A stretch of 64,000 bases of DNA from NCBI GenBank assembly GCA_021298395.1, contig JAJTFH010000008.1:1-64000 (forward strand), written 5' to 3'. A program made the position numbers and the translations under genes. Position 1 is the stretch's first letter; each line of letters starts with the position of its first letter. The DNA comes from Gemmatimonadota bacterium (lineage in GTDB: Bacteria > Gemmatimonadota > Gemmatimonadetes > Gemmatimonadales > Gemmatimonadaceae). Positions 12,681 to 12,715 of this stretch are shown one piece after another. The notes under the pieces are model-generated. The model had not been told where the DNA came from, made no database searches, and saw only the letters and a program-made list of their open reading frames with translations.

Positions 12681-12715
12681 CAGGGGTCAGGTGGCAGGGG
12701 TCAGGGATCAGATGG
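12681..12715 (-). repeat. Heptad repeat abutting the eno start codon (five units)
   Basis: On the coding strand the units are CCATCTG, ATCCCTG, ACCCCTG, CCACCTG and ACCCCTG, then ATG. The same seven-base pattern, in the same orientation, precedes two other genes in this window. Confidence 0.85.

Follow-up and report, generated by a model that had tools for sequence, protein, structure and literature searches.

Tandem repeats with a seven-base step have been noted for years in distant bacteria, without an accepted origin or function. The GGGNATC heptads of Xanthomonas and Nostoc, including the GGGGA(C/T)T units of the cyanobacterial STRR type, are intergenic and dispersed over the genome; the sense strand is the C-rich one in the 50 bp before genes and the G-rich one right after stops (Rehm et al. 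2015, PMC4692102). When two such arrays are opposed, their G-rich strands are convergent (PMC4692102). The TAACTGA heptads of marine Beggiatoaceae have a fixed unit in two to six copies and lie forward, directly 5' of start codons, with few Shine-Dalgarno (SD) sequences; the genes concerned share no functional theme, only 12 of 170 sets are directed at a stop codon, and a translational or mRNA-element role was suggested (MacGregor 2015, PMC4679880). In the account that the latter paper gives of Mrazek et al. 2007, heptanucleotides are the commonest class of long simple sequence repeats in most repeat-rich prokaryotic genomes, and these near-perfect repeats are ascribed to polymerase slippage.

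We have investigated heptad arrays that abut start codons in a member of the Gemmatimonadota. Within the limited literature searched, no earlier description of heptads in this phylum was found.

Heptad arrays in the window

The window is a stretch of 64,000 nucleotides with a G+C content of 70%, located on contig C64 of a 76-contig, 1.82-Mb Gemmatimonadota MAG (G000). Five units (CCATCTG, ATCCCTG, ACCCCTG, CCACCTG and ACCCCTG; 12681..12715, minus strand) run flush into the ATG of eno (11394..12680, minus strand), identified by the Pfam domains Enolase_N and Enolase_C. The best named match of the enolase came from a Gemmatimonadota MAG (86% identity), the second-best reaching 68%. The array was recovered independently by Tandem Repeats Finder (12680-12711, period 7, 4.6 copies), and in the 60 nt 5' of the ATG lag 7 was the best among lags 5-10 (p=0.0005). 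On the plus strand, a similar array (CCCCCTG, TTCCCTG, ATCCCTG, TCCCCCG and ACACCTG; 32059..32093) ends flush with the ATG of purH (AICARFT/IMPCHase according to Pfam; 32094..33668, plus strand). Its core is broken in one of the five heptads, its 5' part overlaps the 3' end of the preceding ORF (31408-32073), and the lag-7 test of the leader gave p=0.0005. An offset version (CCTGTCC, CCTGATA and CCTGACC; 19284..19304, minus strand) is followed by AA and by the ATG of an ELFV-family (Leu/Glu-type) dehydrogenase gene, LeuDH (18202..19281, minus strand; Pfam ELFV_dehydrog_N and ELFV_dehydrog). All three arrays had been pointed out in the initial annotation and were confirmed, the last one with its units in CCTG phase.

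The Rfam search of the window returned tRNAs only, with no other known structured RNA. The window also contains, at 61881-61938, a perfect 29-bp tandem duplication in two copies (AAGGCGCAGGCGCCCCTCTCGAACGGTCA), inside a weakly scoring ORF.

Period, unit and strand of the arrays

The scans of the own genome covered 85% of its sequence, with gene calls from a purpose-written hexamer model; gene starts are predicted throughout. Period 7 gave 23 chains of at least three CCTG cores; every other period tried, from 5 to 14, gave 0-5. A unit-agnostic lag scan likewise supported the period-7 excess, and the reversed motif pattern had no match in the own genome. In some relatives the reversed control pattern does match, and there it corresponds to further heptad types (CCCYAGT-like in G036; period-7 GTCC in G005 and G015).

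A mismatch scan with TGAYCCC, in which all positions were treated equally, defined the unit as CCTGNYM (complement KRNCAGG), mismatches falling on position 3 in 33% and on position 5 in 27% of cases, and on the remaining positions in 2-7%. The variable triplet was identical in 15% of neighbouring units and in 32% of second neighbours, for a pool expectation of 10%, which reveals a tendency to a 14-base dimer rather than to simple seven-base slippage. Plain 7-nt slippage was rejected on the same values, as adjacent units are too dissimilar. Since it would make neighbours alike, yet CCTG is kept and the neighbours are dissimilar, core selection or another process is needed. The AIM24 leader carries the triplets ATC-ACA-TCC in the own genome and ATC-TTC-ACA in G013, in a region that is 94% identical, suggesting that orthologous leaders differ by loss and gain of whole units. 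The arrays are mainly intergenic, with the midpoint within a predicted gene in 6 of the 64 merged arrays. The proposed resemblance to STRR repeats thus holds for the heptad step, the many loci and the mainly intergenic location, with the qualification that neighbouring units here are not near-identical.

Placement was then compared with random controls. In the own genome, 11 of the 18 intergenic arrays are sense with their 3' end within 35 nt of a start, whereas random placement in the same spacers gave 3.15 +/- 1.6 and reached 11 in none of 2000 trials. When the 64 merged arrays of five species were considered, those lying within 35 nt of a start were sense in 28 cases and antisense in 3, arrays in related species being non-independent observations. 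Both results bear out the non-random, sense-strand placement at starts put forward in the initial annotation.

The strand rule extends to the other gene edge. At isolated starts, where the array lies beside one gene edge only, the pyrimidine strand always runs into the gene (11:0). It also does so at isolated stops (12:2), i.e., the array is there antisense to the gene. Where a short spacer between tandem genes holds a single array, the start rule is obeyed (16:2). Array-free leaders are pyrimidine-skewed as well; array-free stop-side spacers show no skew of the right sign, and the stop-side rule is therefore without a compositional explanation.

Opposed arrays up to 150 bp apart were ordered purine-then-pyrimidine on the plus strand in 44 of 44 cases among the matches listed, which came from nine genomes and three unit types. 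In the sequenced set the count was 12 versus 2 in reverse order, both exceptions representing one orthologous locus. The arms are 1-111 bp apart and have no sequence in common. Such pairs lie in spacers of tandem, divergent and convergent genes alike, and their order is independent of gene orientation; its constancy inside one spacer speaks against replication-strand bias as the cause of orientation. The idea of a start-codon element is thus upheld as regards the sense bias at starts, but not by the mirror rule at stops or by the opposed pairs between convergent genes. The sole reverse-order pair (pyrimidine-then-purine) is conserved in two species, at G000:C51:1564-1606 and at L104:1499-1541 (G013), and the former overlaps a predicted gene.

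Unit types across the genus and beyond

The genus set comprised 17 genomes, and most congeners were searched by pattern. Four-unit CCTGNNN arrays were found in G000, G001, G004, G009 and G013 and in none of the other twelve. CCTCNCA arrays are abundant in G003, G007, G010 and G016, and TYCGTCY arrays in G005, G008 and G015, with stray matches of both elsewhere. TTCATCC is a further heptad type seen in congeners without CCTG arrays. Where the initial annotation had made presence at the same loci in close relatives a touchstone, the outcome was mixed: 12 of the 17 genomes are without CCTG arrays, but several carry other heptads, some of them at the same starts. In a FastTree phylogeny of eno and purH, whose support was too uneven for the course of unit changes to be read from it, the TYCGTCY species grouped together, with G012, and the CCTG species grouped together, with G006; the CCTCNCA species fell in two places.

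Arrays are kept at eno, pfkA, LeuDH and AIM24 across the CCTG species, the one at eno being also present in G013, G004 and G001. The eno leader is seven-periodic in 8 of 15 congeners (p<=0.0035, uncorrected for species number), four of the eight having non-CCTG units (G005, G008, G014 and G015), and also in two other genera of the family, represented by G021 (GATTCCC) and G022 (AGTCACC-like). In G022, the region upstream of the enolase gene (L164:1404-1477) has two differing arrays back to back, a GCAGCTA-type one followed by a CAGTYAC-like one.

Foreign heptads were also detected, in single cases, shortly 5' of the start of LeuDH in G015 (613799-613826, start at 613837), of glnN in G005 (from 2880331, start at 2880386), of AIM24 in G016 (from 34238, start near 34225) and of purH in G003. 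Among the matches listed, none was found at any of the six genes tested in G010, nor at pfkA in G005, G010 and G015. As a rough figure, taken among the matches listed and with spacer lengths unmatched, at least 4 of 16 gene-by-species tests (G005, G010, G015) gave a foreign heptad at the orthologous start, for an expectation of a few per cent. From the sequence comparison, this recurrence hints at function.

Similar arrangements were observed in other phyla. In both Acidobacteria bacterium Bin_42R (L281:9889-9971) and a Latescibacterota MAG (L287:9897-9979), purine and pyrimidine heptad arrays of other unit types oppose each other just upstream of the enolase gene, in the order seen in the window's genus. 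An array of TGATCCC/TGACCCC, nearly identical to the Gemmatimonadota unit, is present in the unrelated genome of Proteobacteria bacterium SKS1.bin131 (L318:3226-3253).

Leader structure and explanations of the arrays

About 1% of the genes (12/1164) have an array. None of the 12 array leaders contains a 5-nt SD match. Among non-array genes, 32% have a 4-nt SD match versus 18% in shuffles, and the anti-SD is intact; SD usage is weak genome-wide. The proposal that the array replaces the SD is hence weakly supported: its leaders are indeed SD-less, but the SD is weak throughout. The predicted folding energy between -35 and +15 averaged -5.1 kcal/mol for array leaders, -13.4 for other genes and -14.0 for the array leaders when reverse-complemented. 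An exact search of the 16S rRNA for five GGGTCAGG-type words found none, the shorter word CAGGTGG occurring once, internally. Base pairing between unit and 16S rRNA was rejected, the exact word searches being empty.

On this folding model, the pyrimidine array is compatible with non-SD initiation, the opposite orientation at starts would probably be harmful, and the open SD-less leader probably explains the strand bias there. The start-side strand rule could thus arise without a dedicated function. A putative translational effect would be plausible at starts alone, and a dedicated translational function is possible. Opposed pairs form strong predicted hairpins; reverse-order pairs would fold too, yet they are all but absent, which argues against the hairpin itself being the selected feature.

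We have weighed several explanations against these data. The arrays could be translational or mRNA-stability elements, offering a repeated C-rich leader site for S1, a cold-shock-type or another RNA-binding protein instead of the SD. This would account for the strong sense bias at starts (28:3; 11/18; 11:0), the open leaders without SD and with a conserved CCTG core, the arrays kept at eno, pfkA, LeuDH and AIM24, and the foreign heptads at some of the same starts elsewhere in the genus. We consider it doubtful, given that stop arrays are antisense to the gene (12:2), that opposed pairs lie between convergent genes, that so few genes have an array in a genome where the SD is weak anyway, and that units wholly different among congeners would call for a protein of changing specificity. 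Clustered DNA or RNA sites of a sequence-specific protein, with a preference that shifted between clades, would agree with the position-specific degeneracy of CCTGNYM and with the single unit type per clade recurring at some of the same genes. This reading is less probable still, because a seven-base step places DNA sites on different helix faces, the sites overlap start codons and transcribed leaders, which is unusual for a DNA-binding regulator, and no candidate protein was identified.

REP and REPIN elements are short, intergenic and often arranged as inverted pairs of a palindromic unit, in association with a RAYT transposase. Opposed pairs of constant order with strong predicted hairpins might similarly be terminal inverted repeats or remnants of a small mobile or hairpin element (REPIN/MITE-like), single arrays being half elements. 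However, the arms lie at variable distances (1-111 bp) without shared sequence and may carry different units within one pair (L200, L287), and single arrays are common, making such an origin quite unlikely. An even smaller chance is given to template-strand G-quadruplex elements, as proposed for the GGGNATC heptads: the complement of the array is rich in G and the arrays are placed as described by Rehm et al. (PMC4692102), but TYCGTCY units have no GGG on either strand and still keep the pair order. As a general basis the G-quadruplex was rejected, since the four-G-tract consensus fits 9 of 68 arrays, or 3 of 23 if the own genome is taken by itself, and not the eno array. Finally, the gene starts came from a home-made caller, but chance or an artefact of assembly or gene prediction is refuted by the period-7 excess, the lack of the reversed pattern in the own genome and the orthologous loci in independent genomes, and we give it virtually no credence.

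The explanation that we favour, and regard as somewhat probable, is that the arrays are a clade-specific family of degenerate gene-edge heptads (here CCTGNYM), of a generally known kind, with turnover of units, a strand fixed to the gene edge and placement at starts through the open leader. Such arrays may arise by slippage-like or fold-back turnover, in which whole units would be gained and lost while the three variable positions drift. Orientation is tied to the gene edge, the pyrimidine-rich strand running into the gene at a start and at a lone stop. Directional growth or fold-back on the purine strand, with in-gene growth purged by selection, could yield both edges and the constant pair order. 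At starts, a pyrimidine-rich, G-poor array would give an unstructured SD-less leader, and a reversed array, almost absent there, would fold; selection on orientation may therefore be structure-based. Start-side placement is probably kept as harmless to, or a mild help for, non-SD initiation. In sister clades, the unit letters change, with the seven-base step and the strand rule persisting. Three observations weigh against this account: CCTG is kept while neighbouring units are dissimilar, foreign heptads recur at orthologous starts, and composition leaves the stop-side rule unaccounted for.

A stronger version of such change, a concerted rewriting of units (CCTGNYM to CCTCNCA to TYCGTCY) at many loci as lineages split, with position, period and inward pyrimidine strand persisting, appears rather unlikely to us. 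If true, DNA would have to be read or written in seven-base steps, either by a trans-acting binder or by a copying machinery of templated or directional type. A genus in which sister species differ in their heptads, sometimes at the same genes and under the same strand rule, amounts to a natural experiment: the constant parts (step, place and strand) should reflect mechanism or function, and the changing letters cannot be essential. Taken alone, a quadruplex cannot explain heptads in general, and nor can a start-codon role, given the mirror rule at stops and the opposed pairs found whatever the gene orientation.

The arrays belong to a kind already known from cyanobacteria, Xanthomonas and Beggiatoaceae, and lie outside the quadruplex and TAACTGA classes. 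Apparently new are a motif that is degenerate yet position-specific, units that change within a genus, the recurrence, in part, of arrays at the same genes, and a pair order that holds for all unit types compared. With the GGGNATC heptads they share the heptad step, the intergenic and genome-dispersed location, the strand rule at starts (11:0) and stops (12:2) and the pair geometry (44/44 among the matches listed). They differ in a CCTGNYM unit with a variable triplet, in that most arrays cannot form a quadruplex, and in units that change between species of one genus, one type being without a G-triplet. In common with TAACTGA they have the heptad step, the two to six units, the forward orientation near SD-less starts and the lack of a gene theme, whereas their degenerate unit, the mirror rule at isolated stops and the frequent opposed pairs set them apart. 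They are as short and intergenic as REP/REPIN elements and often paired in inverted orientation, but their unit is a tandem heptad rather than a palindrome, with no conserved core between the arms. Unlike in long simple sequence repeats, neighbouring units diverge at three positions, and every second unit shows the greater likeness.
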